From Hydrogenophilales bacterium 16-61-112 (GTDB taxonomy: Bacteria > Pseudomonadota > Gammaproteobacteria > Burkholderiales > Thiobacillaceae), in contig NCHD01000004.1 in NCBI GenBank assembly GCA_002257045.1, positions 1 to 64,000 on the forward strand: a stretch of 64,000 nucleotides of DNA, read 5' to 3'. The position numbers and the translations under genes were made by a program. Below the pieces are notes generated by a model. The model made no database searches, was not told the DNA's origin, and was given only the letters and a program-made list of their open reading frames with translations. Positions 33,781-61,538 of this stretch are shown one piece after another; the stretch's first letter is position 1, and each line of letters starts with the position of its first letter.

Positions 33781-34980
33781 GTCGACGGCGGCGGATCGCA
33801 TCGACCTCGTCGTATTCAGCGCGCTGTTTCCTAGCGCCGTGCGGCCGGGCGCGGGGCTGTTCATCCGCGAGCGCATGTTCCGCGTCGCCCGCCAGCGGCC
33901 GCTCGCCGTGGTGTCGCCGCAGCCGTGGTTTCTGCCCCCGTGCTGGAAGTGCAGCAGGGCATTCGGGTCTACCACCCGCGCTTTCTGTCTTTTCCCGGCG
34001 TACTGCGTGGACTCGACGGCTGGTCGATGGCCCTCTGCAGCTACTGGCTGGTGCGGCGGCTGAAACAGCAGGGCGCGCGCCTGATCGACGCGCATTTTGC
34101 CTATCCCGACGGCGAAGCCGCTACCCGGCTCGGCCGCTGGCTCGGTCTGCCGGTGACGGTCACGTTGCGTGGCACTGAAGTGCCGCACAGTCGCAATCCG
34201 GCGCTGCGCCCCCGTCTGGTGCGTGCCTTGCGCGGCGCGACGCGGGTGTTTGCCGTATCGGATTCGCTGCGGCGGCTGGCGCTGGAGCTGGGTACGCCGG
34301 CCGAGCGCACCGAAGTTGTCGGCAACGGCGTCGATGTGGCGCGCTTCCATCCGGTCGACCGGATGGAAGCGCGTGCGCGTTTCAATTTGCCAGCGGATGC
34401 GCAGGTGCTGATTTCGGTGGGCGGGCTGGTCGAGCGCAAGGGCATGCACCGCGTGATCGATTGCCTGCCTGCATTGCTGGCGAACCATCCCGCTTTGCAC
34501 TACCTCATTGTCGGTGGCGGCAGTCCGGAAGGGGACATGCGCCCCGAACTGGAGGCCCAGGTCAGGCGACTGGGCCTGGCCGGGCAGGTGCATTTTCTCG
34601 GCGCAGTGGTACCGGACGACCTCAAATGGCCGCTGTCGGCAGCGGACGTGTTCGTGCTGTCCACGCGGAACGAAGGCTGGGCGAACGTGTTTCTTGAAGC
34701 GATGGCGTGCGGCCTGCCGGTCGTCGCCACCGATGTCGGGGGCAATGCCGAAGTGGTGTGTCGCGCCGAACTCGGCAGCATCGTACCGTTCGGCGATGCA
34801 GCCGCCCTGACTACCGCTCTCGACACCGCGCTGGACAAGCCATGGGATCGCGCCGCGATCCTCGCGTATGCCGAGGCCAATCAGTGGGACAAGCGGGTGG
34901 CGCAGTTGCTGCACGCGTTCGCGTCCATGCTGGCGAAACCGGATGTCACGCCGGAACCGACGGCAGCGGCCAAATCATGA
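33773..34980 (+). pseudogene. Frameshifted glycosyltransferase family 4 gene
   Basis: A GT4 gene split between two frames. From TTG 33773 the first 53 codons or so read LAESTAADRIDLVVFSALFP...VVSPQPWF. The reading then shifts at about 33930 and continues to 34980 as PVLEVQQGIRVYHPRFLSF...FVLSTRNEGWANVFLEAMACG. Both parts look like one enzyme. Inserting one C in the run CCCCC at 33933-33937 would restore the frame. However, homologues known to me have about 20 further residues between QPWF and EVQ-G, so a short deletion is also likely. The junction shows no programmed-frameshift signal. Either a sequencing or assembly fault, or an inactive gene. Confidence 0.8.
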
Positions 34981-35837
34981 CAGCCGCCCCACTCGCTTCG
35001 CCCCAACCCGCTACCGGCCACGATGCCCGCAGCCTGTCGTTGCGTCTGCGGCACGCGCTGTGGCGAAAAGCCAAGGCTTGGCGGCAGCGTGTATTGCCGC
35101 GCCCGCTGGCGCAGCATGTGTTCGTTGCCGGCATGCAGCGTTCCGGCACCAATTTGCTGATGGACGTGCTGGACGCCAGCGCCGCCACCCAGGTGTTTCA
35201 CGAGACCGATGCGCGCGCGTTCGAGCGCTACGAGATGCGCGATGTGGCCGTGATCTGGCAGCTCGCCCGCCAGTGCCCGGCGCCGGTGTTCGTGGTGAAG
35301 GCGCTGTGCGAGCTGGACCGTATCAAGTTCCTGATGGAGACGTTCACGCCGGCACACACCCTGTGGGTGGTGCGCGACTGGCGCGACAGCGTGAATTCGG
35401 CGGTCAAGTCATTTGGCAACTTTGTGCCGCAGTGGCAGCGCCTGGCCGAAGGCGACGCCGATGACTGGCGCGGACGCGGGATGTCGGCCGCCACCCGCGA
35501 ACTGCTTGCTGCCCTGTACCACCCGGACGCGAGTGAAGCCGAAGGCGCAGCCATCATGTGGTTCTACCGCAATGTGCTGTTTTTCGAGCAGCAACTGGCG
35601 GCCGATCCGCGCGTGCGCGTGGTGTTTTACGAGGATCTGGTGCAGCAGCCGATGCGTGAAGTCGCTGCGGTGTATGCCTTCCTGGGGCTGCCCGGATTCA
35701 ATGCAGCCAAGGCCCGCCGCATTCACGCACATTCGGTGAAACGCAGGAGTCCGCCCGACATCGCCCCAGCGGTGACGGCTTTGTGCGACGAATTGCTGGC
35801 GCGCTTCGCGGCGTTGCCTGCGCGAAAGCCGGCATGA
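34977..35837 (+). CDS. PAPS-dependent sulfotransferase family protein
   Basis: Sulfotransferase-fold protein of 286 residues. The 5'-phosphosulfate loop is G-M-Q-R-S-G-T-N (residues 52-59) and the 3'-phosphate motif is VVRDWRDSVNSAVKSFG. The catalytic-region ordering and the FYEDLVQQPMREVAAVYAFLGLP segment are typical. It may transfer sulfate from PAPS to a sugar of the polysaccharide, though some members have other acceptors. ATGA overlaps link it to both neighbours. No PAPS-synthesis genes are in the window. Confidence 0.85.
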   Translation: MTAAPLASPQPATGHDARSLSLRLRHALWRKAKAWRQRVLPRPLAQHVFVAGMQRSGTNLLMDVLDASAATQVFHETDARAFERYEMRDVAVIWQLARQCPAPVFVVKALCELDRIKFLMETFTPAHTLWVVRDWRDSVNSAVKSFGNFVPQWQRLAEGDADDWRGRGMSAATRELLAALYHPDASEAEGAAIMWFYRNVLFFEQQLAADPRVRVVFYEDLVQQPMREVAAVYAFLGLPGFNAAKARRIHAHSVKRRSPPDIAPAVTALCDELLARFAALPARKPA

Positions 35838-37225
35838 GCGTTCCGGTCTGGTTTGCCCGCACGGTGTTTCGCGCGCAGGAAGCCGCGATGAAACGCCCTA
35901 CCTTTGCAGTGCTGACCGGACTGGAGCGCAGCCAATGGCTGTCGCCCGAAGCCATGCAGGTCGAACAGACTCTGCGCCTCAATCAGCTGTTGCACACCGC
36001 CTTGCTGCATAGTCCATGGCATGCCGCGCGTCTGCGCGAGGCGGGACTGGATGGTCGGGTGCGGGCAGGCGCGGCCACGCTGGCGGATCTGACGTTGCTG
36101 CCGACCATGAACAAACGCGATGCGCGCGAACACGTCGAGCAGCTGGTCTGGCGCGGTGTGCCGGGTGGGGTGTTCAAGTACACCACGGGCGGATCCAGCG
36201 GCGAGCCGCTGATTTTCTATTTCGGCCGCGCGCGTCAGGCAGCCGATGCTGCCGGGCGCCTGCGCGCGCGCCGCTGGTGGGGCGTCGAGCCAGGTGCGCG
36301 CGAGGTCTATCTGTGGGGCGCGCCGGTGGAACTGAACAAGACCGACCGCATCAAGACGCTGCGCGACCGTCTGGTCAACCAGCTGTTGCTCAACGCCTTC
36401 GAGATGTCGCCCGCACGGATGGATGAGTATCTGGGCGCACTTCAAGTCTGGAATCCACTGGCGATTTATGGCTATGCCAGCAGCTTGGCCTTGCTGGCTA
36501 GCCACGCTGTGGCGCGTGGTGTCGGACTGAAACTGCCCGCGTTGCGCGTGGTCAGCGCCACCGGCGAGCCCTTGTTCCCGCACCAGCGTGAGTTGATTGA
36601 GCGCGTGTTCGGGGTGCCGGTGTCCGTGGAATATGGTGCGCGCGATGCCGGGTTGATGGCACTGGAGTCGCCCGACGGCGTGCTGCTGCAAATGAGCGAG
36701 ACCCACCTGATCGAAGTGCTCGACGCCGCCGGGCAGCCGGTGGCGGACGGCGAGGAGGGTGAAGCGGTGGTCACCAGTCTGGTGTCTGAAGCGCAGCCCT
36801 TCATCCGCTATCGCACCGGCGACGTCGTGCGGCGTTCGACCCGAAATGACCCCAGCGGCCGCGCCCTTGCGGTGCTCGATGCCGTGGTGGGGCGGCAGAC
36901 CGACTTCATCGTCGCCGCCGATGGCCGCGTCATGCACGCGCTGGCGGTGATTTACGTGCTGCGCGCGATTGCCGGCGTCGACCAGTTCAAGTTGATCCAG
37001 CACGCGCTGGATCGCCTGGAAGTGCAGGTGGTCCCGGATGCGCGCTGGAACGAGGCCGCACGCGCCGCCGTGATCGAAGGCCTGCGCGCGCGGCTGGGAC
37101 CGGCGCTGGCGGTGGAGTTGAAACTACTGGATGCGATCGCCCCCGAAGCCTCGGGCAAACACCGTTATGTCGTCAGCCACGTGCCGCTTCCCGGCGCGCT
37201 GGCGCAGAAAGCTGAAGCCGCATGA
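35834..37225 (+). CDS. CapK/PaaK-like adenylate-forming ligase
   Basis: ANL-superfamily protein of 463 residues, closest in layout to phenylacetate-CoA ligase and the capsule protein CapK. The phosphate-binding loop reads YTTGGSSGEPLIFY, and later motifs are VSATGEPLFPHQ, EYGARDAG and IRYRTGDVV; the C-terminal lid domain is present. In capsule loci such proteins may activate acids for transfer onto the sugar. The substrate is unknown. ATGA overlaps on both sides show that it belongs to the operon. Confidence 0.85.
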   Translation: MSVPVWFARTVFRAQEAAMKRPTFAVLTGLERSQWLSPEAMQVEQTLRLNQLLHTALLHSPWHAARLREAGLDGRVRAGAATLADLTLLPTMNKRDAREHVEQLVWRGVPGGVFKYTTGGSSGEPLIFYFGRARQAADAAGRLRARRWWGVEPGAREVYLWGAPVELNKTDRIKTLRDRLVNQLLLNAFEMSPARMDEYLGALQVWNPLAIYGYASSLALLASHAVARGVGLKLPALRVVSATGEPLFPHQRELIERVFGVPVSVEYGARDAGLMALESPDGVLLQMSETHLIEVLDAAGQPVADGEEGEAVVTSLVSEAQPFIRYRTGDVVRRSTRNDPSGRALAVLDAVVGRQTDFIVAADGRVMHALAVIYVLRAIAGVDQFKLIQHALDRLEVQVVPDARWNEAARAAVIEGLRARLGPALAVELKLLDAIAPEASGKHRYVVSHVPLPGALAQKAEAA

Positions 37226-38517
37226 GAGACATCTTCATTACCGCCGTCATCTTCGGCCTGCTGCCGTTTGTCTTTAAACGCCCGTGGCTGGGCATCCTGC
37301 TCTGGTCGTGGCTGGGTTACATGAGCCCGCACCGGCTGGCGTGGGGCTTTGCCTACAGCCTGCCGTTTTCGATGATCGTCGGTCTGGTGACCATCGTTGC
37401 CTTTATGGCGTCTAAGGAAAAGAAAGAGATGCCGTGGACGCGCGAGACCATTCTCCTGCTGGTCTTTGTAGGCTGGATGCTGTTCACCACCTTCTTTGCG
37501 TTTTATCCCGACCTGGCCTGGATGCAATGGGACAAGGTATGGAAAATCCAGCTCATGGTGTTCCTGACGGCGCTCATCATCACCGACCGCCATAAACTGC
37601 ATTGGCTCATCTGGGTGATTGCCCTGTCATTCGGGTTCTATGGGGTCAAAGGCGGAATCTTCACCATCATCAACGGTGGCGCCTACCGGGTGCAGGGGCC
37701 TCCAGGCACCTTTATTGGGGGCAACAACGAAATGGCGCTGGCGTTGGTAATGACGATTCCGCTGATCCGTTATCTGCACCTTCAGGAAACTCGTCATTTG
37801 TTCAAAATGGGTCTTGCCAGCGCCATGGTGCTGACCGGGGTGGCGGCGATCGGCAGCCAGTCGCGCGGTGGCCTGGTGGCAATGGTGGCGATGGGCCTGT
37901 TCCTGTGGCTGAAGAGCCGCAACAAGATTGTCACGGGGTTATACATGGCGATCGCGGTTTTGATCATGGCCTCGGTGATGCCGCAGGCCTGGTACGACCG
38001 CATGAACACGATCAATACCTACGAGCAGGATCAGTCGACCCAGGGACGCTTCAATGCCTGGCATACCGCATTCAATCTGGCGAAAGACCGCATCACGGGC
38101 GGTGGCTTCGAGACGTTTCAGGGGCCCACCTTCCGCCAATATGCGCCTGACCCGTGGAACGTGCGCGACGTGCACAGCATCTATTTCGAGCAGATGGGCG
38201 AGCATGGCTTCATCGGCCTGGCGTTATTCCTGCTGCTGGGCCTGCTGGCCTGGATCCGCGCGCAGCAGATCATCAACCGATGCAAGAACGATCCGGAGCG
38301 GAAATGGGCGGCCGATCTGGCGGCGATGATCCAGGTCAGCCTCATCGGCTTTGCCGCAGGCGGCACCTTTCTTGGCATGAGCTACTTTGACCTGCCCTAT
38401 CACCTGATGGTCATTCTGGTGCTGGTCGCCAAATTCACCGGGCTGCTGGAGAAGCAGGTGGTTCCGCTTGCACGCTTTGGCAATGTGCCCGACGCCGCCC
38501 CCCGGCCATTTATTTAA
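37222..38517 (+). CDS. XrtA-associated O-antigen-ligase/polymerase-like protein
   Basis: Inner-membrane protein of 431 residues with about ten to twelve membrane segments (Wzy/WaaL-like fold), the probable O-glycosylation ligase of exosortase A loci. Typical elements are PWLGILLWSWLGYMSPHRL at the start, GPPGTFIGGNNEMALAL, a SQSRGG motif, and the large periplasmic loop after helix 9 containing VRDVHSIYFEQMGEHG. It would polymerise repeat units or transfer the glycan in the periplasm. ATG 37222 overlaps the ligase stop (ATGA). Confidence 0.92.
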   Translation: MRDIFITAVIFGLLPFVFKRPWLGILLWSWLGYMSPHRLAWGFAYSLPFSMIVGLVTIVAFMASKEKKEMPWTRETILLLVFVGWMLFTTFFAFYPDLAWMQWDKVWKIQLMVFLTALIITDRHKLHWLIWVIALSFGFYGVKGGIFTIINGGAYRVQGPPGTFIGGNNEMALALVMTIPLIRYLHLQETRHLFKMGLASAMVLTGVAAIGSQSRGGLVAMVAMGLFLWLKSRNKIVTGLYMAIAVLIMASVMPQAWYDRMNTINTYEQDQSTQGRFNAWHTAFNLAKDRITGGGFETFQGPTFRQYAPDPWNVRDVHSIYFEQMGEHGFIGLALFLLLGLLAWIRAQQIINRCKNDPERKWAADLAAMIQVSLIGFAAGGTFLGMSYFDLPYHLMVILVLVAKFTGLLEKQVVPLARFGNVPDAAPRPFI

Positions 38518-42818: not shown

Positions 42819-42959
42819 GGTGTGTTGTGTCGGAGTGATGCGGGATAATGCCCGCCAATATATAACGAGCCGGTGATCAGGCACGAATTCTGCTCATCGA
42901 TTTACGGATTCCATCCCTGTGCAGCCGTGCCGGTTCGCGAACAATGAAAGCCCACGAGT

Positions 42960-43776
42960 TTGAATGAATTTTTCGACAAAGTAGCCAAAACGCTGGCCTA
43001 CCACGCGCAACGACTGCTGCGCGGCGTGCGCGGCGTGCGCTGGAACCTGTCGCGCCGGCCTGCCCGTCGCCCGATCATCGTGGTGGGCTGCGCTGTCGGA
43101 TAAAAACTGGGACACCCATGCACTGGATGCGGCCGATGTCAGCCCGGCGGACCGCGACACCGTCAGCCGCTATTTTTACCGCTGGACGGGGAAGCATCGC
43201 TGGGTCGACAAGAACAACCAGAACGGCCTGTGCGTCCCCTATTTGACCACCCTGTTCCCGGACGCGGTACTCGTGTTCGTCAAGCGCAGCCCGGGCGACA
43301 ACCTCAATTCCCTGATCGAAGGCTGGCGCAAGCCCGACGAATTCGCGACCTGGTCCAAGGATTTGCCGGCGACGGTGGCGGTGGAAAACGGCCAGTTGAA
43401 GGAATGGTGTTTTTTTCTTGCCAATGGCTGGCGTGACTATGTGAACGCACCGGTTGAGGACGTGGCCGCATTTCAATATCGGGCGATCAATCAGGCGATT
43501 CTTGAGGCCCGTGCGACGTTGCCCGGGGCGCAGTGGGTCGAGGTGTTTTACGAAGACTTCCTGCGTGACCCCGCCACCACCTTCCGCCAGGTGTTCGAAG
43601 GCTGTGGCCTGAAGTTTGATGCCGCGCTGCAGGCGCGTTGCGCCGAGGTGCTCGATACGCCGTTCAATGCGTTTTCCGAAATCCGTCTCGACAAATGGAA
43701 GGACGGCCGCAACCGTGAAAAAATCGAGCGCGTGTTGCCGCAGGTGGCGGACGTGGCCGGGCGGATGGGCTATTGA
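42960..43776 (+). pseudogene. Broken sulfotransferase gene
   Basis: A sulfotransferase gene split between frames. From TTG 42960 it reads LNEFFDKVAKTLAY...RRPIIVVGC, the strand that precedes the phosphosulfate loop, then hits TAA at 43101. From about 43085 another frame continues ALSDKNWDTHALDAADVSP...VFVKRSPGDNLNSLIEGW and ends at 43776 with VFYEDFLRDPATTFRQVF. The RSGTT-type PAPS-binding loop and roughly 40 residues after it are absent. Deleted length is 3n+2 bases, by frame. The 3' end overlaps the next gene (TGATG). It is inactive as read; the remainder is too well preserved for old decay. Confidence 0.78.
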
Positions 43777-49850: not shown

Positions 49851-52800
49851 TTAGGCTTCGGTGCTCAAAAACTCTTGCAGACCTACCCAGAGCTCCGCGT
49901 TGACATCCGGGTGCGCTTCTGAAACATCGTGCTGGCAGGCGGGGTCGCTTTCCAGATCGAACAGGCGCAGCAGATGGCCAGATTCCAGCGGCTGATACAC
50001 CAGTTTCCAGCGGCCATGCCGGATCATGCGGTCTTTCGCACGCAGGATGGCATCGCAGTATTCAGGCTTGATCGCCAGGGTGCCACTGGCGCGGTTGGGG
50101 ACTTCCAGCAGTTCCAGCAGATCCGGGTAGCGCAGATGGTTTTCGGGCAAACCGGGTATGTCGGCGATCCAGATGCCGGTTTCGTTGAAGGCGTCGAGTT
50201 CGGGGCAGGCGCCGTCCGTGCTCAGGCACGCCACCAGCGACACACCGTCAATGCCGGGTGCAGGTGCCGCGTCGATCAGCTCGAGCAGGGTGGGCACCAG
50301 GTCGATTGAGCGCACCACCTGGTCGATCCGGCCACGTGCCGGGCGGCGCGGATCACGGATCAGTAGCGGGATGCGGGGGCTGAAGTCGCCGACAGCCGAG
50401 TTGCCCTGCCCCCAGGTGTCGTGCTCGAAAAACTCCATGCCGTGGTCGGAGTACACCACGACAATCGTATTGTCGGCGAGCCCGCAGGCGTCGAGATGCG
50501 TCAGCATTTTGCCGACTTCGTCGTCGAACTCCGCTACGCAGCCATCATATAAATCAATGATTTGATCGAGGTCGAACTCCTCTTTGGGCGCACCCTGGCG
50601 GCGAATGATTTCGAACGGATCGGTGAGCCGCGCCATGGCGAACTTGGATTCGCCTGCATGCGCTGGATCAGAGAAGCGTCCATACCACGGCCATTCAGAA
50701 GCAAACGGCGGGTGGGTGGTGGAATAGAACAGGTTGAGAAAAAACGGCTGGGTATCTCCCGCGAGGCGCGACACCAGGCGCCGCGCGCGCTTGCCCAGCG
50801 GTTGCGTCAGCGGCACGCCACCCAAGTAGTACAGCTCGGGCAACAGCAGCCGCCCCAACCGGTTGTGGGTGAACAGGGAGACGAACAGGCGCAAGTCCTT
50901 GGGGCCCTGGCGGATCAGATATTTCAGGTTCCACTGGTCTTCCGGCAGGTCAGTGTAGTCGAAGCCGAACGAATATTTGCCGAGGTCGGCGCCGCACCAG
51001 TCGGAAATGGCCGCAGTGCGATAGCCCGATTGCTTTAGCAGGGTGGGCAGCGCATCGATTTTCAGTCGGGTATTCTCATCGTCGGCGAAGTTGTCGCGGA
51101 TGCCATGGGTGTGCGGCCAGGTGCCGGTCAGCATCGAGATGAGGCTGGGTGCGGTGCGCGCGCAGGGTACGTAACAGTTGCTGAACAGCGCGCCGGATGC
51201 CGCCAGCCGGTCGATGTGCGGGGTCAGCGCACGGTGATAGCCGAGCGCGCCCAGACGGTCGGCCCGCAGCGTGTCGGAGCCGATCATCAGGATGTTGGGT
51301 GCGGCCTTGGGATCGCGTAGCGTTTGCCTGCGTGGTGCACGCGGCTGCGGCTGCCAGCTTGCCCAGATCAGGGTGCCGCTGAAAAAAAGTGTGGTCGTCC
51401 ACAGCGCAACCAGGTCGCCCAGGCGGTTTTCCTTCGCCATCTGCCAGGTGGCGGTGATCAGCAACAGACCGCTGATCGCCATCCCGCCCCGTTGAATCAG
51501 CGTAATGCGGGCTGGCGTCATCCACTGCCACAGCGGGTACAGCCGACTCATGCGGTAATGCATCGACGCCACCAGCAGGCCGGGGTTGAAGCGCAATTTG
51601 CGGATGAATTGCAGGGCAAAGCTGCCCACGATGCCGAGGGCGGCAGAGCCGAGCGCGATGCCGGTCGACCAGCCGATGCCTGTCGCGGTGGCCAGCATGA
51701 AGGCCAGCAGCATGCCGATGCCTCCAGTGAACAGCATCAGGCCGAATGCCCACAGCGAAAGCCGTGCCAGCGCGAACAGAGTGTAGCGCTGGTAGTGGGT
51801 GAGCACTTCTTCGCGGATGCGCGGCCCGGTTTGCGAAAAATCGAGCAGCGACTTGGTAAGCAGAGCGGCTGTGCCCACGCCTGCCACGCCTGCCGCAGGC
51901 AGCAGCCCGGCCCAGCGGGCATCGCCGCTGGCGAACCAGGCGATCAGACCGCAGGCCGCGGTGGCGATAGCCAGCGCCTCGACACGCAGGATGCCGGCAT
52001 CGGGCGGCAAGTTCAGCCGCTTGCCGCGAAACCCGGACTCGCGGTGGCCCTGGATTTCGCCCAGCGCCGCTGCCGTGCGCACCCAGAAAAAACGCCGCTT
52101 CGCCCACGACAGGCTGAACACACTGTGAAAACCGTATTCCGCCAGCTTGCGCCACATATAAAGCGGAACCGAGCCGCCGCCATGAATGCGTGCGGTCGAG
52201 CGGGTGCGCTGGTAGCTCTTTTTGAGCAGGTAGCCAAGCTGCAACCGCTCGGTGTCGACGTAGTGGTGTTGCACGATGTCCGGCGCATATTGGCAGCGTT
52301 CGCCGCGCGTCATCGCGCGCAGCACGTATTCACTGTCTTCGCCGCCGCCCAGATCATGGCCGACGGGTCCCAACTCAGTGGAAAACTGCCCCGCCAGCTC
52401 GAATACGCGCCGCCGCACCACCAGGTTGCCGCCGCCCGGGATGGGGCCAACTTCGGCGCTGATGGTTTTCGGCGTCATCCCCTGGTCATAACGTGGAACC
52501 GGCAGCGGATAGATGCGGTACGCGCCTTCTTCATGCACCCACGTGGGCTCGTTGCCGTCCCAGTCCGGCAGGATGCGGCCGCAGTAAAGCCCGGCATCGG
52601 GCCAGGTGGTGACGGCACGTTCGATCGCCGTCAGATAATCGTCGTCTACGCGGTGATCGTCGTCCACAAAAGCGGTCAGTTCGGTTTCGATCTGCGGAAT
52701 CGCCTCGTTCAGCGCGTGCGATTTTCCTGGCGTCGGCACCGTGATCACGCGCAGCGGCAGCCAGTTGTTGGCAGCTTGCTGTGCCTGGTACGCCTGCATC

Positions 52801-52949
52801 TGCGCCACGGTGTCGTCGCTGCAGGCATTGGCCGCCACCAGGATGCGCACCGGCATCGCGGGACGCCCGGCGCGGTTGATCGAGGCCAGGGCCTTGTGCA
52901 GCAGGTCTGCCCGGTTGTGGGTGCAGATGAGGAGGGTAAGTTCGGTCAC
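49851..52949 (-). CDS. Fusion: glycosyltransferase family 2 - membrane domain - sulfatase-like hydrolase
   Basis: Protein of 1032 residues in one frame with three parts. Residues 1-300 are a GT2 domain: TLLICTHNRADLLHKAL, D-x-D-type site in FVDDDHRVDDDY (about 93-104), and GGGEDSEYVLRA. Residues about 320-530 contain five to seven hydrophobic segments. Residues about 545-1030 form an alkaline-phosphatase-superfamily sulfatase domain: ILMIGSDTLRADRLGALG, the nucleophile region CARTAPSLISMLTG and the metal site VVYSDHGMEFFEHDTWGQGN. The nucleophile position holds T599 (T-A-P-S), not Cys or Ser in C-x-P-x-R, so formylglycine formation is not expected. The hydrolase may instead be a phosphodiesterase or transferase. 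GTG start at 52949 overlaps the previous gene by 4 (GTGA). Confidence 0.88.
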   Translation of the reverse strand: MTELTLLICTHNRADLLHKALASINRAGRPAMPVRILVAANACSDDTVAQMQAYQAQQAANNWLPLRVITVPTPGKSHALNEAIPQIETELTAFVDDDHRVDDDYLTAIERAVTTWPDAGLYCGRILPDWDGNEPTWVHEEGAYRIYPLPVPRYDQGMTPKTISAEVGPIPGGGNLVVRRRVFELAGQFSTELGPVGHDLGGGEDSEYVLRAMTRGERCQYAPDIVQHHYVDTERLQLGYLLKKSYQRTRSTARIHGGGSVPLYMWRKLAEYGFHSVFSLSWAKRRFFWVRTAAALGEIQGHRESGFRGKRLNLPPDAGILRVEALAIATAACGLIAWFASGDARWAGLLPAAGVAGVGTAALLTKSLLDFSQTGPRIREEVLTHYQRYTLFALARLSLWAFGLMLFTGGIGMLLAFMLATATGIGWSTGIALGSAALGIVGSFALQFIRKLRFNPGLLVASMHYRMSRLYPLWQWMTPARITLIQRGGMAISGLLLITATWQMAKENRLGDLVALWTTTLFFSGTLIWASWQPQPRAPRRQTLRDPKAAPNILMIGSDTLRADRLGALGYHRALTPHIDRLAASGALFSNCYVPCARTAPSLISMLTGTWPHTHGIRDNFADDENTRLKIDALPTLLKQSGYRTAAISDWCGADLGKYSFGFDYTDLPEDQWNLKYLIRQGPKDLRLFVSLFTHNRLGRLLLPELYYLGGVPLTQPLGKRARRLVSRLAGDTQPFFLNLFYSTTHPPFASEWPWYGRFSDPAHAGESKFAMARLTDPFEIIRRQGAPKEEFDLDQIIDLYDGCVAEFDDEVGKMLTHLDACGLADNTIVVVYSDHGMEFFEHDTWGQGNSAVGDFSPRIPLLIRDPRRPARGRIDQVVRSIDLVPTLLELIDAAPAPGIDGVSLVACLSTDGACPELDAFNETGIWIADIPGLPENHLRYPDLLELLEVPNRASGTLAIKPEYCDAILRAKDRMIRHGRWKLVYQPLESGHLLRLFDLESDPACQHDVSEAHPDVNAELWVGLQEFLSTEA

Positions 52950-53881
52950 GTAAGCCTTTTGGCGGAGCGCTGGCGGTAGCCCTGCAGATAGCCCAGCGCG
53001 TGGGCGGCGTTCATGGCCTGCCGAATCTGGCCGGGCTTGCGAGCCAGGAACAGGGCGAGCGTCTTGGCACCACGGCTGAAAAACTGGCGCAGCAGGAAAG
53101 GCGGAATGCCCAGCCAGCCGGCCGGAAAATGGGGTGCGCTGAGCTGCGCCTGGCGCAGCCCTGCCCGGTAATGCAGTTTCAGGAAATAGCGGCGATGCAG
53201 TTTCCAGGCGTCGACCGAGTGCTGCACCACCATGTCCGGGCGGTAGCGGATTCTGGCCTGTCGCGCCAGCAGGGCGCGCAGCATGATGGCGTCCTCGCCG
53301 CCGCCGACATCCGCCCCCTCGCGGTTGTAGCGGGGGTCGAAACGCAAGGCGGGGTCATCGCGGAAGAGCCGCATGTCGTAGGCCACATTGGCGGTCCAGA
53401 TGGGCGTACTGCTGTCCTTGATCCAGAAGTGCTGCGAACCGTGATCGACAGCGGCCAGAAAGCCGAGCAGGTCGTCTTCAAGCCAGGACGGACGGATGTG
53501 CGTGACGAAATCCATTTCCACGCAGCCACCGACGCATTGCGCGCCTTCGTTGACGATGGCGTCACAGGCGGCGGCGAGAAAGCCGGGATGCGGCAGTTCG
53601 TCGTCATCAATGAACACCAGGATGTCGCGGTCGAGCGATTCTTCGAGGGCACGATTGCGCGCGGGCACGATACCGGGCGCGGTTTCGGTGACCACGCGCA
53701 GCTCCGCGCCGGATTGTTGTTGCAGCGCGTTCAGCACCGCCAGCGTGTCGTCGGGACTGTTGTTGTTGATCGCGAGAATATCGAATGGGATCGGGCAGTT
53801 TTGCGCACGCAGCGCGGCGACCAGTTTGTCCAGCCGGTCGGCGCGTTTGAACGTGCAAAAAGCGACAGTGAGCGTGGTCAT
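52946..53881 (-). CDS. Glycosyltransferase family 2
   Basis: GT-A enzyme of 311 residues: VAFCTFKRADRLDKLV, DILAINNNSPDDT, APGIVPARNRALEES, and the metal-binding FIDDDELP. The C-terminal half has the N-terminal-like GGGEDAIMLRALLA, shared with the GT2 domain of the downstream fusion protein, suggesting common ancestry. No membrane anchor is obvious apart from a weakly hydrophobic C-terminal stretch. Coupled to the fusion gene. Confidence 0.9.
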   Translation of the reverse strand: MTTLTVAFCTFKRADRLDKLVAALRAQNCPIPFDILAINNNSPDDTLAVLNALQQQSGAELRVVTETAPGIVPARNRALEESLDRDILVFIDDDELPHPGFLAAACDAIVNEGAQCVGGCVEMDFVTHIRPSWLEDDLLGFLAAVDHGSQHFWIKDSSTPIWTANVAYDMRLFRDDPALRFDPRYNREGADVGGGEDAIMLRALLARQARIRYRPDMVVQHSVDAWKLHRRYFLKLHYRAGLRQAQLSAPHFPAGWLGIPPFLLRQFFSRGAKTLALFLARKPGQIRQAMNAAHALGYLQGYRQRSAKRLT

Positions 53882-53894
53882 GCAATACGTGCCG

Positions 53895-54863
53895 TCAGAT
53901 GTGGTTGCGCGCGCTGCGGCGGTTGTCTACCAGGCGAATCAGCGAGTCGAACAGCGGCGCCGGCAGAAAGCTTGCAAAGATGTATTTGGCGTCGCGCGCT
54001 TTCCAGTCAGCCTTGCGGAAGGCATGGCGGAACAGTCGGCGCGACGAGTCGGTATCGCGGCGCCAGTGGCAGCGATAGGCTTCGGGCAGCAGGGAACCGT
54101 AGACCAGCGCATCGCGCGTTTCGCGGCCGAGATGGGCAACTTGCGTGGGATGGTGGCGGACGAAGGTTTCGCGCACGGCAACCGCGTCGAATACTTGCCG
54201 CCAGCGCGGAATGTGCGCGTCGCCGCGCGGATAGCGGCGATAAAACGCCAGCACCTGGGGGACGCGCACCACGGTGGGCTGGGTGGGCAGCATGCGCAGC
54301 CACAGGTCGTAATCCATGGCCGTGGGCAGGCGTTCCGAAAATCCGCGCAAGCGGTCGATCAGCTGGCGTCGCACCAGCACGCCATTGATCGGCCACGGAC
54401 AGGACTGCAGGAACAGGGCGGCCGCGTCGGATTCGACGTAATCGGGGGGTATGTAGGGTTGCGTGTCAGCAGCCGCCTCGCCCACGTTTTGCCAGCCGCA
54501 ATAGGCGACATCGGCCAGCGTGTCGGTCATGGCAGCGTGCAGTTGCTGGAGCGCATCGGGATGCCAGGTGTCGTCGGCGTCCAGAAAGGCGATGAAGTTG
54601 CCGTGCGCATGATCCAGCCCGTGATTGCGTGCGGTATAGGGGCCGCTGTTGGTCTGGTGCAGCACCGTGATGCGGTCGGGATGCGCTGCGGCCAGGCGGG
54701 CAATGATCCGGGTCGAGGCATCGGTCGAGCCGTCGTCCACGATGATCAGTTCAATCGAGGGATAGCGCTGTTGCAGCACGCTCTCGATCGCCTCCTCCAC
54801 AAACAGGGCGGCGTTGTAGCAGGGCATGACAACGGAAATCAGCGCGGGGTCAAAGTGGTCCAT
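53895..54863 (-). CDS. Glycosyltransferase family 2 (tandem paralogue A)
   Basis: GT-A enzyme of 322 residues: ISVVMPCYNAALFVEEAIESVL, IIVDDGSTDAST, and FLDADDTWHPDAL. The acceptor half shares several stretches with the neighbouring gene at 54877: AYCGWQN, PPDY, CPWPINGVLVRR and a YDLWLRM motif. The two are evidently duplicates. There are 13 bases to each neighbouring gene in the reverse operon. Confidence 0.92.
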   Translation of the reverse strand: MDHFDPALISVVMPCYNAALFVEEAIESVLQQRYPSIELIIVDDGSTDASTRIIARLAAAHPDRITVLHQTNSGPYTARNHGLDHAHGNFIAFLDADDTWHPDALQQLHAAMTDTLADVAYCGWQNVGEAAADTQPYIPPDYVESDAAALFLQSCPWPINGVLVRRQLIDRLRGFSERLPTAMDYDLWLRMLPTQPTVVRVPQVLAFYRRYPRGDAHIPRWRQVFDAVAVRETFVRHHPTQVAHLGRETRDALVYGSLLPEAYRCHWRRDTDSSRRLFRHAFRKADWKARDAKYIFASFLPAPLFDSLIRLVDNRRSARNHI

Positions 54864-54876
54864 CGGATAAGTGGGT

Positions 54877-55800
54877 TTATTGGTCTCGTCGGCCGATCAG
54901 CCCGCGGTGCCAGGATTCTGGCAGCCAGGCGGGCAGCATGTACTTCCAGTCGCTGAGTGTGCCATAGCCTTGTTGCATGACGGCACGAAAAATGCGCCGC
55001 GCGGCAGGCAGGTCGCGTTGCCAGTAGCAGGCGTAGCCACGCTTGAGCAGTTCGCCGGTGGTCAGGGCACGCAGGCGGTCGCGGCCGAGCTGGTGCTGAA
55101 AGGCCAGGTGTGCGGCGAGGTAGTGCTGTTGCGCCTGCCAGAATTGGAGCGCGGCAAGGGCGTGATCGGCCGAGGCCTGCGCAGCGCCATGAAAATGATA
55201 GAAGGCCAGGACCTCGGGCACCCGTACGATCGGTGCGGTGGTGGCCACGTTCAGCCACAGCGCGTAATCCTCGGCATTTTTCAGCGTCGGGTCGAAGCCG
55301 TTTGCAGCCAGCACCGCCTCACGTTTGACCAGCGCGGCGTGGATCGGCCAGCGGCAGCCGGCAAACAGCGTTTCGATCTTTTCGGCAGTTTCATAGTCGG
55401 GCGGCACGAAGGGCTCGCCGCGGCCGCCCGATATCCCCAGATTTTGCCAGCCGCAGTAGGCCAGCACCGCCTCCGGATGGCCTTCGAGTGCGGCCGACAA
55501 CTGCGCCAGACATCGGGTGTCCCAGGAGTCATCTGCATCCAGAAAGGCGATGTAGCGCCCTTGCGCCAGCGCAAGCCCGGCGTTGCGAGCGGCGCTGACG
55601 CCCTGGTTGGGCTGGGCGTGGATGCGGACGCGCGGGTCGGTTTGCGTGCGCAGCCAGGCCAGGGTCGAGTCGCTGGAACCATCGTCAATAGTGATGAGTT
55701 CCCAGTCAGAATAGGTCTGTGCCAGCACGCTGCCCACGCTGGACGGCAAATGTACCGCTGCGTTATGGCAGGGCATGATGATGGAAATGACCGGCGGCAT
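54877..55800 (-). CDS. Glycosyltransferase family 2 (tandem paralogue B)
   Basis: GT-A enzyme of 307 residues: ISIIMPCHNAAVHLPSSVGSVL, ITIDDGSSDST, GVSAARNAGLALAQG and FLDADDSWDT. It is a paralogue of the adjacent gene (shared AYCGWQN, FVPPDY, CRWPIHAALVKR, YALWLNV). The C-terminal region (CYWQRDLPAARRIFRAVMQQG) is likewise duplicated (CHWRRDTDSSRRLFRHAF). Substrate or linkage presumably differs from the partner. Confidence 0.92.
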   Translation of the reverse strand: MPPVISIIMPCHNAAVHLPSSVGSVLAQTYSDWELITIDDGSSDSTLAWLRTQTDPRVRIHAQPNQGVSAARNAGLALAQGRYIAFLDADDSWDTRCLAQLSAALEGHPEAVLAYCGWQNLGISGGRGEPFVPPDYETAEKIETLFAGCRWPIHAALVKREAVLAANGFDPTLKNAEDYALWLNVATTAPIVRVPEVLAFYHFHGAAQASADHALAALQFWQAQQHYLAAHLAFQHQLGRDRLRALTTGELLKRGYACYWQRDLPAARRIFRAVMQQGYGTLSDWKYMLPAWLPESWHRGLIGRRDQ

Positions 55801-55809
55801 CGGCTTGGC

Positions 55810-56610
55810 TCAGACGCGTCGCAAGCGACGCAACGCGTAGGCTGCGATGTCCCGCCAGCGCACATCGTGGCTGCCGAAATAGAGCTTTCGCGTAAAGCTG
55901 CCGAGCGTATCGGTATTGAAAACGGTCAGGCGCCGCAAGCGATAGGGATCCTTGTCGCGCAATGCCCAGCCTGTTCGGGTGGTGCAGGCGGCGGCATAAC
56001 CGGCCTGTTCAACCGCCTCGGCGCAACGAACGTCCCAGGCACCGTATGGGTAGGCGAAACTGTTGACCGCGTTACCAAGGATATCTTCAAGCGTGGCCTT
56101 GGAGTCAGTCAATTCCTGCATCAGGCGCACATCATCGGTTTCTGGCAGGCGCACATGATTCACCGTGTGGGAACCGATTTCCATGCCGTTTTCTTGCATG
56201 TCGCGCAGCTCGGCTACGTTGAGCAACCGCCCTGCGGGACGGCCGTCGTCGGGCCACAGCGGCGATTGGCCGACCGAGCCCGACACGATGAACCAGGTCG
56301 CACGCATGCCGCGTTTCATGAGTTCTTGGCAGGCGTCGAGGTTGTCTATATAGCCGTCGTCAAAGGTGATGACAGCCGTTCGCCCCCTCCAGGTTTTTGC
56401 GGGAGCCGCAACCAGCTCGCCCATGGTCGGCGTGGCATAGCCTTCGGTGGCCAGAAAGTCGAGTTGGTCGCGGAAGCGTTGCATGGAGACGGACCATGGC
56501 CATGCTGATATGGCTTTACCTGGCGTGATGGCGTGGTACATGAGCATGATTGGTCCATGTTGGCCAGCCTGGCGGTGTAGTGAGCGTGAGATGGGATCGA
56601 TCCAGGTCAT
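55810..56610 (-). CDS. Polysaccharide deacetylase family protein
   Basis: NodB-domain protein of 266 residues. The metal- and base-containing motifs are VITFDDGYIDN (TFDDGY) and GSHTVNHVRL (S-H-T-x-N-H), followed by FAYPYGAWD. The N-terminus has MLMYHAITPGK, typical of PgaB/IcaB-like deacetylases. There is no signal peptide. ATG 56610 overlaps the flippase stop (ATGA). Third deacetylase-type gene of the locus. Confidence 0.92.
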   Translation of the reverse strand: MTWIDPISRSLHRQAGQHGPIMLMYHAITPGKAISAWPWSVSMQRFRDQLDFLATEGYATPTMGELVAAPAKTWRGRTAVITFDDGYIDNLDACQELMKRGMRATWFIVSGSVGQSPLWPDDGRPAGRLLNVAELRDMQENGMEIGSHTVNHVRLPETDDVRLMQELTDSKATLEDILGNAVNSFAYPYGAWDVRCAEAVEQAGYAAACTTRTGWALRDKDPYRLRRLTVFNTDTLGSFTRKLYFGSHDVRWRDIAAYALRRLRRV

Positions 56611-58091
56611 GCGATGGCTTTGGCAAGTTTAAGTTTGACCTTCCAGCGTGTGGTTTCTGTGGCAAGTGCCGGAATGGGTAGATATAAAAAACAGAGGGCA
56701 TAAACCAGTCCACCCACAATAGCCATCAGCAACACATACAATGCATCGACCGATCGGATGGAGGGCGGGATGATATGCTCGGCCAGCCATAAGGCGGCAA
56801 GCAGTGCGGTATTGAGGAGCACTGCAGGCATAAAAGCGCGCGCAAGGTCAGCCCAGCGTGCATTGAGAGACAGTTTGGCAAGCCAGAACATGTGAATGGA
56901 CATATAGAGTAGGGCAATGACCATGCCGGTTGCCACACCAACCATCCCGTAAGGCAGACCGACCAGAATGGCGGCAGCGGCCACAGCAATCATGATGATC
57001 TGCGCGACCAGTTCTCTGTCCAACCAGTTGCGCGCGGCCAGTACGGCACCGGACAGGTTTTCGATCATCATCAGCGGTGCGGCGAAGCTGAGAATGATCA
57101 GGGGAAAGGCCGAATCGGCCCATCGATGACCAAAGAGCGTGACGACCAGCGGTTTGGCCAGCCATAGAAATCCGATATAGAAAGGCAGGGCATACACGGC
57201 CACCAGCGTCAGGCTGCGAAAAAACAGATAGCGGGATTTGTCGAGGTTGTCCTGTTCCTTCGCCAGTGCGCGGAACAGGACTTCGTACACCGAGCCGGTA
57301 ATGAAGCCATGCGGGCGTGCAGCCAGACTTTCTGCCTTGTTGTACAAGCCCACTCCGGCAGGGCCCATGCTGCGCGACAGGATGAAGGTGGGAAGCTGGC
57401 TGCGTATGTAGTAAACGATGTTGTTACTGGAGGCCAGTAGGCCATAACGCATGAGCTCGCCAGCGCGAGCAAAATCGAAGTTGATACCCGGACGCCAGCG
57501 CGCGTGCCAGGAAAGTTGCAGTGCACCCGATACTGAACCCAAAAGTCCGGCGAGGATCAGGCTCCATGGGCCGTGACCCAGATAGGCGAGGCTCAGCGCG
57601 ATGCTGTTGTAGACCACCAAGTTGATCAGCTGAACCGCCGTTTTGGCCTTGAAACGCATGTCTCGGTGGAGCATGTTGCTGGGTACGTTAAAAAATGGTC
57701 GAATCAAAAAAGATAGTGAAGACACGCGCAGCAAGTCGGCATACACGGGGTTGCCATACCAGCGGCCAAACCAGGGCGCGATTGCAAAAAAGAAACCAAC
57801 GATCACTAATCCGATCAGGAATTGCAGCGTGAATAGCAAATCGTAGTCACGCTTGCTGGCCTCTTTCGCACGGACCAGGGCTTGCCCCATCCCACCGCCT
57901 GCAACAAAACCCGCAAGATTGGTGAAGATCAGGATTGTCGCCACCATGCCGAATTCGGCCGGCATCATCAGGCGGGCAAGAATCAGCCCCAAGGCGAAGT
58001 TGATAATCTGGCTTCCGGTATTGCCGATAAATACCCATTTGGCGCCGTGGCGGATATTGTTTCCGATACTCAATGGCTTCTCCCCATACAT
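56607..58091 (-). CDS. Wzx-like polysaccharide flippase (MOP/PST family)
   Basis: Inner-membrane protein of 494 residues with about twelve to fourteen membrane segments, of the WzxC/RfbX-like PST branch. Typical elements are NNIRHGAKWVFIGNTGSQIINF at the start, ARLMMPAEFGMVA after helix 1, FNVPSNMLHRDMRFK and GLYNKAESLAARP. It would flip lipid-linked repeat units to the periplasm for the polymerase at 37222. No other flippase is in the window. Confidence 0.93.
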   Translation of the reverse strand: MYGEKPLSIGNNIRHGAKWVFIGNTGSQIINFALGLILARLMMPAEFGMVATILIFTNLAGFVAGGGMGQALVRAKEASKRDYDLLFTLQFLIGLVIVGFFFAIAPWFGRWYGNPVYADLLRVSSLSFLIRPFFNVPSNMLHRDMRFKAKTAVQLINLVVYNSIALSLAYLGHGPWSLILAGLLGSVSGALQLSWHARWRPGINFDFARAGELMRYGLLASSNNIVYYIRSQLPTFILSRSMGPAGVGLYNKAESLAARPHGFITGSVYEVLFRALAKEQDNLDKSRYLFFRSLTLVAVYALPFYIGFLWLAKPLVVTLFGHRWADSAFPLIILSFAAPLMMIENLSGAVLAARNWLDRELVAQIIMIAVAAAAILVGLPYGMVGVATGMVIALLYMSIHMFWLAKLSLNARWADLARAFMPAVLLNTALLAALWLAEHIIPPSIRSVDALYVLLMAIVGGLVYALCFLYLPIPALATETTRWKVKLKLAKAIA

Positions 58092-58430: not shown

Positions 58431-59237
58431 TCATCCTTGTGGTTTATCGGTCTGCTGGCGGATGAGGGTTTGATCCTTGTTACGCAGAGAGCCCATCCGA
58501 TAAACGGCAAATAATGCTATGGGCATCACCATCAACTTATGGCTGGCCAGCTTGAGTTTCCATGAAACTAAAGGCTCTTTGGAAAAGACATGCAATCGCC
58601 CAAGTGGGAAGTAGTGCATATCCAGTCTCTTTGCCAGCAGCGACAAACCTTTGCGCGAGAAAAAAGCAATGTGCTGACCAGTGCCGAACGCGTAATACCC
58701 CCATTTGCCAGCAGCGGGCGGAGCATTGTCTGGAAAGGTTTCGGTTGTGAAAATCAGAGTGTTAGTCTGATGGGTAGCCAAGATTTGTTCAATGAATTCA
58801 AGAGGGTTGAGCGTGTGCTCTAACACTTCTATAGCGCTGATGGCGAGGCAGGCGCCTTGGTTGGCATCGTATTCAAAGCCCCGGGCAAACAGATTTTTTG
58901 AATAAGGGTCGGACCAGTAATATTTGAATCCCAGATCGCGCATCAGTCGGGTCAGCAAGCCGTATCCACCAGCCACATCAACATATTGACCGTGTCCACG
59001 GTCACCCAAAACCAGATAGTTGATTGCTGCGAGCCGCAGCGCGGTGAAGATGTTTCGTGCCGCTATATCCGTGTCCTCCCGAGCGATGGACTCGGAGTAG
59101 GCTTCATCCAGCCACGTGGGTTGGTCAACGAAGATGTGGTCGCACGCCGCGCAATAGCGATAGAGCGCCGCATGTTTTTTGAGGACGGTGGCGGTGAAAA
59201 TTGTTTGGGTTTCTGCGCCGCAAATATGGCAATCCAT
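58431..59237 (-). CDS. Class I SAM-dependent methyltransferase with zinc ribbon
   Basis: Protein of 268 residues. An N-terminal zinc-ribbon-like pair (C-H-I-C ... C-A-A-C) is followed by a SAM-binding fold: YVDVAGGYGLLTRLMRDLG as motif I and AISAIEVLEHTLNPLEFIEQI as the acidic motif. This architecture occurs in sugar methyltransferases of polysaccharide loci. It probably methylates a sugar or lipid-linked precursor. The nucleotide composition is somewhat AT-richer than the core. Confidence 0.82.
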   Translation of the reverse strand: MDCHICGAETQTIFTATVLKKHAALYRYCAACDHIFVDQPTWLDEAYSESIAREDTDIAARNIFTALRLAAINYLVLGDRGHGQYVDVAGGYGLLTRLMRDLGFKYYWSDPYSKNLFARGFEYDANQGACLAISAIEVLEHTLNPLEFIEQILATHQTNTLIFTTETFPDNAPPAAGKWGYYAFGTGQHIAFFSRKGLSLLAKRLDMHYFPLGRLHVFSKEPLVSWKLKLASHKLMVMPIALFAVYRMGSLRNKDQTLIRQQTDKPQG

Positions 59238-59280: not shown

Positions 59281-60393
59281 TTACGGAGCGGGCGTAAGTG
59301 AGCATTGTTCGGCGACCCGATTGGCAAATAACTCACGCGTGTAGTGCTTTGAAATTTGCGCATAACCCAGTTCAGCATCTAGGCACCGATCAACCGGATC
59401 GTCTAACCAAGCGAGACACAAATTGGTAAATTCGGCATCACTTTGAGCGACGCCCAAGCCTGCGTTTGCAAGGTTGAGCTTGAACGCTTCGGCACCTTGT
59501 GGAGTGGTTACACACGCGCGGCCAAATGCCAGCGATTCCAGAATCTTGATATTGGTGCCGCCACCGGAATAAATCGGAGCAATGGTCAATGCCGCGTTGC
59601 AGTAGGCCGCGCCAAGATCATCAACAAACCCTGGAGCCGAGACATCCGGATGCCGCTCCCAGGCCTGCCGCATTGCGGGTGGGGCGGCACCCACGAGCAG
59701 CAGCCGGGTGTCCGGCCGGGCCGCCTTGATGGAAGGCCAGCAGCGGGCAAGGAAACGGTCGATCCCCTCGCGATTGGGCGCATACCAGAGTGAGCCGACA
59801 AACAGCAGGGTGGTGCTGTCCGTTTGGGGAAAAGGCTCGGCAGGCGGGCTAAACGGGATATTAGGCAACAGAGTCGATTGCAGTTCGGAATGGCGTGCCT
59901 GGTCGCGCGGGCTGACGAAAAAGAAGGCGTCAAATCGCTTGAGCTGCCGCTGCGCCAGTCGGGCGGCGTAGGCTGATTTTAGTCGCGCGGCCAGCGCCAG
60001 CATACCGGGTGCGTAGTGGTAGCCCCAATCGTCGAGATCGACCACGGTGCGCACGCTGGACGGAATCAAGAGTTTGCAGATGGGATTGAGGTAACGGCTG
60101 ACGATCAGTCGGTATGCCCCCAAATTCACGCCGTTTTCACGCAGGACCTGGTTAAGGATGGGGTCAGGTTGAAATTTTCTGATGCCAAGTGGGCGCTGAT
60201 GCCACAGACCGTGCGCCAGAATACCTGACTTGGGCGGCGTCAATCGGCTGGCACCGGGGGTCGGTTCGAGCAGCAATACGTCCACTTCCCCCAAGTTTTG
60301 TAGCGCGGAATAGAGCAAAGCGGTGCGCTGTTGTGCACCGGATTGGGGCGCAAATGGCGAAGCAGGCGAAACCAGCAGGATAGGCTTGGACAT
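59281..60393 (-). CDS. Glycosyltransferase (GT4-like)
   Basis: GT-B fold protein of 370 residues. N-terminal VSPASPFAPQSGAQQRTALLYSAL, central VDLDDWGYHYAPG, and C-terminal LFVGSLWYAPNREGIDRFL, IAPIYSGGGTNIKILESLAFGRACVTTPQGAE match the same group as the stp1-type GT at 26705. ATG 60393 (MSKPILLVSPASP) is the natural start; the frame is open further upstream without family resemblance. First gene of its reverse operon, divergent from aroB. Confidence 0.88.
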   Translation of the reverse strand: MSKPILLVSPASPFAPQSGAQQRTALLYSALQNLGEVDVLLLEPTPGASRLTPPKSGILAHGLWHQRPLGIRKFQPDPILNQVLRENGVNLGAYRLIVSRYLNPICKLLIPSSVRTVVDLDDWGYHYAPGMLALAARLKSAYAARLAQRQLKRFDAFFFVSPRDQARHSELQSTLLPNIPFSPPAEPFPQTDSTTLLFVGSLWYAPNREGIDRFLARCWPSIKAARPDTRLLLVGAAPPAMRQAWERHPDVSAPGFVDDLGAAYCNAALTIAPIYSGGGTNIKILESLAFGRACVTTPQGAEAFKLNLANAGLGVAQSDAEFTNLCLAWLDDPVDRCLDAELGYAQISKHYTRELFANRVAEQCSLTPAP

Positions 60394-60459
60394 GGCCGTT
60401 AGATTGTAAGCGGAGTCTGCTTGCTGTGTGTGGCCGCAGGGACGGTTGGCTGTGAGCGT

Positions 60460-60468
60460 TGCTACAAT
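60460..60468 (+). promoter_or_regulatory. Extended -10 promoter of aroB
   Basis: TGCTACAAT at 60460-60468 is an extended -10 element (TGn plus TACAAT, five of six). Transcription would start near 60475, leaving a leader of about 28 bases before the ATG at 60503. No good -35 box is seen, as usual for extended -10 promoters. Confidence 0.5.
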
Positions 60469-60502
60469 GCGCCGTCCGCCTTTAACTGTCCGTTCCGTCT
60501 GT

Positions 60503-61538
60503 ATGCAAACCCTCACCGTCGATCTCGGCGACCGCTCCTACCCCATCCATATCGGCCCCGGTCTGCTCGACCAGCCCGAACTGATCCTGCCGCATCTGGC
60601 GCAGAAGCGCGTGATGGTCGTGACCAACACGACGGTGGCGCCGCTGTATCTGGCGCGGCTGACGGCGACGCTGGCGCGCGGCGGGGTGGCGGCAACCAGC
60701 GTGGTGCTGCCCGACGGCGAAGCCTACAAGAACTGGGAAACGCTGAACCTGATTTTCGATGCGCTGCTGACCCAGCGGGCCGAGCGCAAGACCACGTTGA
60801 TCGCGCTCGGCGGCGGGGTGATCGGCGACATGACCGGGTTTGCCGCGGCGTGTTACCAGCGCGGCATGCCGTTCATCCAGATTCCGACCACCCTGCTGTC
60901 GCAGGTCGATTCGTCGGTGGGCGGCAAGACCGGCATCAACCATCCGCTCGGCAAGAACATGATCGGCGCGTTCTATCAGCCGCAGGTGGTGCTGGCCGAT
61001 ACCGATACGCTTGATCTGGGACGTGGAATTTCTCGGCTGGCTCGAAGCCAACATGGACAAGTTGCGTGCGCTGGATGCGCAAGCGATCGCCCACGCCATT
61101 CACCGTTCGTGCGAGATCAAGGCGCAGGTGGTGAGCCAGGACGAGCGCGAAGGCGGCATCCGCGCCATTCTCAATCTGGGCCACACCTTTGGCCACGCCA
61201 TCGAAACCGGCATGGGCTATGGCAACTGGCTGCATGGCGAAGCCGTGGGTGCAGGCATGGTGATGGCGGCGGAAGCTTCGCGTCGCATGGGCTGGTTGAG
61301 CGAAGCGGACGTGGAACGCAGCCGCGCCCTGATCCGCGCCGCCGGCCTGCCGGACGTGGCGCCCGATCTGGGCGCGGACACCTGGCTCGATTACATGGGG
61401 CACGACAAGAAGGTCGAGTTCGGCAAGCTGCGGTTTGTGCTGCTGAAGCGCCTGGGTGAAGCGGTGGTGACGGGCGACCTGCCCGAGGCTACGTTGCGCG
61501 CCACGCTGGCGGCGTGTGTCGCACCCGGCTGCGACTAG
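60503..61538 (+). pseudogene. aroB: 3-dehydroquinate synthase gene with frame-shifting internal deletion
   Basis: AroB makes 3-dehydroquinate from DAHP with NAD and Zn, step two of the shikimate pathway. From ATG 60503 the reading is normal for about 170 codons ([79 protein letters not shown]). At about 61014 it shifts frame; the rest continues [17 protein letters not shown]...[10 protein letters not shown]...GMVMAAEAS to 61538. Missing between the parts is the ~20-residue conserved block containing the E-L-S-A-G-x-A-E-x-x-K-Y-G motif. By frame the deleted length is 3n+2, so about 59 or 62 bases. A working shikimate pathway is normally essential, so an assembly fault is likely. Confidence 0.92.

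Follow-up and report, generated by a model that had tools for sequence, protein, structure and literature searches.

A glycosyltransferase–membrane–sulfatase-fold fusion protein with a threonine at the nucleophile position in a polysaccharide gene region of Hydrogenophilales bacterium 16-61-112

Introduction

The first 64,000 nucleotides of contig NCHD01000004.1 of Hydrogenophilales bacterium 16-61-112 (assembly GCA_002257045.1), hereafter the window, encode on the minus strand a protein of 1032 residues that joins a family 2 glycosyltransferase (GT2) domain, a membrane region and a domain of the sulfatase superfamily. This locus raises the question of what a sulfatase-like domain with a Thr in place of the usual nucleophile does in the same polypeptide as a glycosyltransferase (GT), and on which side of the membrane it does so. 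Our answer, to which we would give roughly an even chance, is a bifunctional, cytoplasm-facing enzyme of the inner membrane that takes part in exopolysaccharide repeat-unit assembly and whose second domain would be a metal-dependent Thr hydrolase or transferase, acting probably on phospho-groups. As a variant built from known parts, the family is unstudied, and no paper describing such a fusion was found in the open-licence literature, a scope that leaves subscription journals and preprints outside.

Results

The fusion gene and its parts are as follows.
49851..52949, minus strand: whole fusion gene, 1032 amino acids, GTG start at 52949, stop codon at 49851-49853
52035..52949, minus strand: GT2 domain, residues 1-305 (Pfam PF00535/PF13641), with catalytic-type Asp96-98 and Glu204-Asp205
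51357..51998, minus strand: membrane region, six helices at residues 318-340, 344-369, 380-423, 429-454, 479-506 and 510-531, from AlphaFold secondary structure, hydropathy and charge
49854..51305, minus strand: sulfatase/phosphonate-monoester-hydrolase fold domain, residues 549-1032 (PF00884; structural matches with Z 34-37)
51144..51158, minus strand: R598-T-A-P-S602, with T599 at the nucleophile position (codon 51153-51155)
50442..50447, minus strand: D835-H836, predicted metal ligands together with D559 (51273-51275), conserved in 74/74 relatives and aligned to the sulfatase SDHG

The frame has no internal stop along its full length, Pfam recognizes GT2 at residues 6-151 (E 5.6e-14) and Sulfatase at residues 551-893 (E 6.5e-47), and six hydrophobic segments lie between them. 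A sequence-only reading of this DNA had described this fusion in one frame and had named two possible signs against it, a stop between residues 300 and 545 betraying merged genes, and homologues in which the domains are always separate. The stop was looked for and none is present, and near full-length, stop-free matches with 54-96% identity occur in 36 other genomes of the bacterial family, so that frame, domains and recurrence all uphold the description. The family sample holds 117 genomes, of which 82 have some match to the fusion protein, weak GT-only matches included. Among the nearest named relatives (Hydrogenophilales and Thiobacillus), one locus, L053, encodes a GT part 98% and a sulfatase part 95% identical to those of the window protein. 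The further remark that this domain order is not a standard one holds with respect to textbook families and fails within the protein's own family, where the order is common. That a sequencing or assembly error merged two genes has next to no probability. The source genome is indeed a 2.9-Mb assembly in 206 contigs, one of them carrying the window, and some relatives have the two genes unfused side by side (overlapping by 4 bp in locus L175), but the recurrence in the 36 genomes, which include the isolates Thiobacillus thioparus DSM 505 (L068) and Aromatoleum anaerobium (L112), rules this out.

The C-terminal domain has the fold of the S1 sulfatases. Across residues 549-1032, the structural matches reach Z 36.8 with 6hr5 (root-mean-square deviation (rmsd) 2.4, 354 residues aligned), 36.0 with 4upl_C (rmsd 3.3, 402 aligned) and 34.5 with 4uph_A (rmsd 3.6, 399 aligned). 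Chains of LtaS, EptA and MCR-1 are not among the best 50 matches listed in the fold searches, which is not evidence of a different fold. The nucleophile position is occupied by T599, in the context R-T-A-P-S-L, just as the sequence-only reading had noticed, and a Thr stands there in all 113 distinct relatives (110 with RTAPS and one each with RTAPC, RTSPS and RTAAS). Furthermore, D559, T599, N620, H746, D835 and H836 are found in all 74 aligned relatives, which therefore share the Thr nucleophile and Asp-His metal site typical of LtaS and EptA; L074, L077 and the five cut loci are not in the first-model alignment, and of L088 only the part preceding the fourth domain was used. Several other residues on which sulfatases depend (residue roles from PMC5066984 and PMC5870055) have been replaced. 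In profile alignments, S649-D650-W651-C652 stand opposite the sulfatase Gly-Lys-Trp-His and L603 opposite the Arg of C-x-P-S-R, and in the alignment with SpAS2 the second Lys falls on N850. The sulfatase signatures PS00523 ([CS]-x-P-x-R nucleophile loop, a strict pattern, but one whose catalytic letters fail here) and PS00149 (G-K and H) match none of the 113 relatives, and on these grounds a formylglycine sulfatase is rejected.

A Thr is not rare in this superfamily, being present at the nucleophile position of 30 of the 59 Pfam sulfatase seed proteins; its oxidation would give a ketone and not formylglycine (PMC5066984). LtaS, EptA and MCR-1, all of them enzymes with phospho-group substrates, use a Thr as nucleophile, and in YejM, reported to be a phosphatase in vitro, a Thr is the key residue of the active site (PMC7576196, PMC5031297). 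The suggestion that T599 points to phospho-chemistry or to a transferase has thus become likelier, given the Thr and the lost sulfatase Arg and Lys, the reaction itself being what we infer from these residues.

The AlphaFold model of the full protein (mean predicted local distance difference test (pLDDT) 86.7, predicted template modelling score (pTM) 0.79) contains six membrane helices in three tight hairpins, and the six segments are hydrophobic family-wide. The mean count of Lys and Arg (K/R) per loop is 4.7 on the N-side, 3.9 in b-c, 6.3 in d-e and 3.9 on the C-side, and 0.8 in a-b, 0.2 in c-d and 1.3 in e-f. The K/R density is higher in the predicted inner loops than in the outer ones in 65/65 fused and 9/9 separate sequences. 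Both the GT2 and the sulfatase-like domain are thus predicted on the cytoplasmic side, a placement that is well supported by prediction. The idea of a GT in the cytoplasm and a hydrolase in the periplasm, put forward from the letters alone, is not borne out by the three hairpins and the K/R loops, and a periplasmic hydrolase is unsupported by the six-helix model and its charge pattern.

The number of helices follows the fusion. The first segment reaches a Kyte-Doolittle (KD) value of 1.2 in 64/65 fused proteins versus 3/9 separate ones, and the model of L123, one of the separate relatives, has five helices, the first one being absent (pLDDT 87.8, pTM 0.91). The extra helix hence accompanies the attached cytoplasmic GT2, in keeping with a catalytic C-terminal domain that remains inside in both forms. 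In Candidatus Nitrotoga sp. 1052 (L088, 6071-10435), a four-part frame of 1454 amino acids adds to the GT2, membrane and sulfatase-like parts a C-terminal domain resembling CDP-glycerol glycerophosphotransferases (PF04464). In L114, the next gene is a 55% homologue of this PF04464 domain. The CDP-glycerol glycerophosphotransferase family uses a cytoplasmic donor, so that the composition of L088 supports an inside location of the C-terminal domain.

The N-terminal domain has the marks of a GT2 enzyme, that is PF00535 with an Asp-rich motif and a Glu-Asp pair. D96, E204 and D205 are present in 65/65 fused rows, and D97 and D98 in 60/65; a search of this domain against the PDB gave no match at 0.001. 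Compared with the window protein, L057 (6050-9190) is 92% identical in the sulfatase part and only 38% identical in the GT. Altogether, 9 relatives combine a GT identity of 38-44% with a sulfatase identity of 80-92%, and in 5 further relatives (sulfatase identity 77-84%) the GT has no BLAST match. From these comparisons, the GT module seems to have been swapped near the residue-305 boundary with retention of the sulfatase-like part, L057 being an apparently recent exchange. Since the GT is exchanged while the rest stays constant, we suggest that the sulfatase-like domain may act on a constant feature, the added sugar being what varies.

Two genes of the window match sulfotransferases.
34707..35837, plus strand: sulfotransferase (PF13469, E 1.1e-17)
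43114..43620, plus strand: second sulfotransferase match (PF13469), gene seemingly damaged at its 5' end

They are the only PF13469 matches of the window genome, which also has an adenylyl-sulfate (APS) kinase. The plus-strand frames of 43075-43851 contain the second sulfotransferase without an intact 5' end and with its P-loop region split across frames, so that this gene looks damaged in the assembly. PF13469 occurs within 10 kb of the membrane-sulfatase gene in at least 46 of 65 genomes, versus 4 of 17 control loci (G014, G018, G020 and G097; p 6e-4), the controls being the XrtA loci of 17 genomes without the membrane-sulfatase part, several of them cut by contig ends and two shorter than 8 kb. 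Models built from the loci themselves find a sulfotransferase within about 7 kb in 55 of the 67 loci with at least 3 kb of upstream sequence (62 of 80 counting all), in 10 of 14 further family loci and in 10 of 12 class-level loci. A first control with these models (55/67 versus 2/17, Fisher p 1.1e-7) was set aside as biased because the models, coming from the same loci, missed another subfamily. In many loci the sulfotransferase lies directly 5' of the fusion with a 4-bp overlap (e.g. L069). The linkage is weakened by the 12 of 67 loci without a sulfotransferase nearby and by the frequency of PF13469 across the family (somewhere in 93 of 117 genomes). The polysaccharide of the gene cluster is possibly sulfated.

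The 113 distinct relatives, taken as tree rows, comprise 71 with the same fusion, 5 with another N-terminal part, 29 with separate genes and 8 unassigned. The 80 loci with record titles divide into 61 fused to a similar GT, 5 fused to another N-terminal part, 9 separate and 5 with a cut 5' end; Pfam identifies this other part as a GT2 in all three cases scanned (L039, L040, L042). Fused and separate labels come from the longest open frame and BLAST, and three loci labelled separate (L033, L170 and L171) carry additional N-terminal sequence that is unexplained. The membrane-sulfatase part has matches in 19/399 genomes of the order sample, 21/369 of the class sample and 1/299 of the phylum sample, each count including the window's own genome. 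On the tree of the 113 rows, whose root is weakly supported, fused versus separate requires 6 changes. In L175 the genes are separate and overlapping, with the GT first, and in L179 the GT, membrane-sulfatase and sulfotransferase genes are consecutive; these arrangements are a plausible step before fusion.

In the window, the fusion gene is the last of a minus-strand run of polysaccharide genes, and its 5' end shares 4 bp (GTGA) with the GT2 gene upstream. The surrounding genes are the following.
52946..53881, minus strand: GT2 gene (HpsE-like), sharing the 4-bp overlap with the fusion gene
53895..54863, minus strand: GT2 gene
54877..55800, minus strand: GT2 gene
55810..56610, minus strand: polysaccharide deacetylase (PF01522)
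56607..58091, minus strand: MOP-family (Wzx-type) flippase, below the curated cut-off of its best model
58431..59237, minus strand: methyltransferase (PF13489)
59281..60516, minus strand: group 1 glycosyltransferase (PF13692)
30647..38517, plus strand: XrtA-type exopolysaccharide genes, namely amidotransferase TIGR03108, glycosyltransferase TIGR04063 and ligase TIGR03097

An MBOAT acyltransferase (PF03062) and a second asparagine-synthase-like amidotransferase lie in the same polysaccharide region, at 39523-40956 and 40992-42884. In many genomes of the window's genus the fusion and XrtA genes share a contig, some 15-25 kb apart. A role as core gene of the XrtA system was considered and rejected, the XrtA amidotransferase being on other contigs in several genomes of genus g7. 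At 12 loci, a gene for 309 amino acids stands directly upstream of the fusion (L072:5113-6039 and related); for that of L072, neither Pfam nor, above chance level, the PDB gave a match.

Discussion

In the mechanism that we propose, the GT2 domain would add a sugar at the inner face of the membrane, presumably onto a lipid-linked intermediate, and the three helical hairpins would keep both this domain and the sulfatase-fold domain at that cytoplasmic side. The latter would use a one-metal site of the alkaline-phosphatase superfamily (D559, D835, H836), with Thr599 as direct nucleophile and with N620 and H746, and would do so with the sulfatase Arg, Lys-x-His and Lys lost. As the metal site and the Thr are kept and these sulfatase residues are not, hydrolysis or transfer of a phospho-group through a covalent Thr intermediate is most likely. 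Its substrate would lie on or near the glycan built by the GT2 domain and the neighbouring sulfotransferases.

Several observations weigh against this proposal. D650, occupying the position of the anion-binding sulfatase Lys in 74/74 relatives, is unexplained by any model; in Foldseek and VIA, the domain falls among sulfatases and phosphonate monoester hydrolases and away from the membrane phosphotransferases; and the neighbourhood favours sulfate over phosphate. As for the topology, the simple hydropathy method overlooked one expected helix in an LtaS-like control protein, the window's own genome has no PF04464 gene, and the five helices of the unfused form would by themselves also allow the topology of YejM and MCR, in which the catalytic domain is outside and to which the charge pattern is the only objection.

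The unexplained D650, the sulfatase-like fold and the sulfotransferase neighbours leave room for a Thr domain that removes or moves a glycan sulfate in the cytoplasm, alongside the sulfotransferases next door, which depend on 3'-phosphoadenosine 5'-phosphosulfate (PAPS). The closest folds being sulfatases, the enrichment of PF13469 around the gene, and the APS kinase and both PF13469 genes of the window genome argue for such sulfo-chemistry, which we nevertheless regard as unlikely, given a Thr that is unable to yield formylglycine, signatures that match no relative, and Leu, Asp-Trp-Cys and Asn at the positions of the sulfatase Arg, Lys-x-His and second Lys. We know of no Thr-dependent sulfatase. 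The loss of several catalytic residues could also indicate that the sulfatase-like domain is non-catalytic and positions the GT2 domain or senses a ligand, as regulatory members of the alkaline-phosphatase superfamily, such as YejM, do exist (PMC7773988). Yet nucleophile and metal ligands, and the Asn and His as well, do not vary among the 74 aligned relatives, a strictness beyond what a scaffold requires, and we hold a pseudoenzyme to be slightly more doubtful still. A more ambitious idea, and a decidedly improbable one, is that of a first sulfatase-fold enzyme working in the biosynthetic direction. By way of a Thr intermediate, it would edit or transfer a sulfate (or else a group bearing sulfate or phosphate) on a lipid-linked glycan at the cytoplasmic face, united with the GT2 domain that makes its acceptor and in step with the sulfotransferases. 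Coupling across the membrane, with a cytoplasmic GT2 and a periplasmic hydrolase as in the sequence-only reading, would have a precedent in the membrane phosphotransferases and YejM, which hold such a domain outside after five helices (PMC7576196, PMC5031297), and the unfused relative has five helices too. It is, however, very improbable in view of the six helices of the fused protein, of a first segment whose hydrophobicity in fused forms fits a C-terminal side fixed inside, of the charge pattern and of the PF04464 domain at the C-terminus of L088.

The cytoplasmic Thr enzyme that we favour matters beyond this locus, as Thr-type proteins of the sulfatase family are routinely misnamed, and the present family gives one of them a pathway, a partner domain and a predicted membrane side, which opens its reaction to testing. 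The family further draws attention to exopolysaccharide clusters with sulfotransferase genes in Thiobacillus, Thauera, Aromatoleum and others. In 2021, a study of synechan stated that no such bacterial cluster was known outside its own group (PMC8205485), although for a Vibrio a cluster for a sulfated capsule was reported in 2024 (PMC11641403).

Comparison with known systems

The GT2 domain resembles those of exopolysaccharide loci (HpsE and EpsD type), with an NCBIfam HpsE match over residues 3-243 (E 1.2e-23); it differs from them by a score below the curated cut-off (83.6 vs 300 bits) and by its C-terminal fusion. With the formylglycine sulfatases of family S1 (SulfAtlas; arylsulfatases, choline sulfatase), the second domain shares the complete fold, C-terminal part included (Z 34-37, 20-27% identity), as well as the metal Asp, the Asp-His pair and the active-site Asn and His, whereas it has Thr for Cys/Ser, Leu for Arg, Asp-Trp-Cys for Lys-x-His and Asn at the second Lys, and is joined to a GT2 and a membrane region. 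Phosphonate monoester hydrolases and phosphodiesterases (S1_0) are among its best structural matches (4uph_A Z 34.5, 2w8s_A 34.0, 2vqr 31.9), but these are soluble oligomers with formylglycine, in contrast to the Thr and the predicted membrane attachment found here.

LtaS, EptA, MCR-1 and YejM have in common with the fusion a Thr nucleophile, an Asp-His metal site and membrane helices preceding the catalytic domain. While they have five helices and an outside catalytic domain, the fusion is predicted with six helices and an inside one, and so departs from their extracytoplasmic arrangement. The window genome's only other PF00884 protein (L182, 1201-3174; 657 amino acids, several membrane segments) is of LtaS-like appearance. 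Finally, the synechan sulfated exopolysaccharide cluster likewise combines Wzx-type exopolysaccharide genes with PF13469-type sulfotransferases; it is cyanobacterial, and the text of its description mentions no glycosyltransferase-sulfatase protein (PMC8205485) of the kind encoded in the window.

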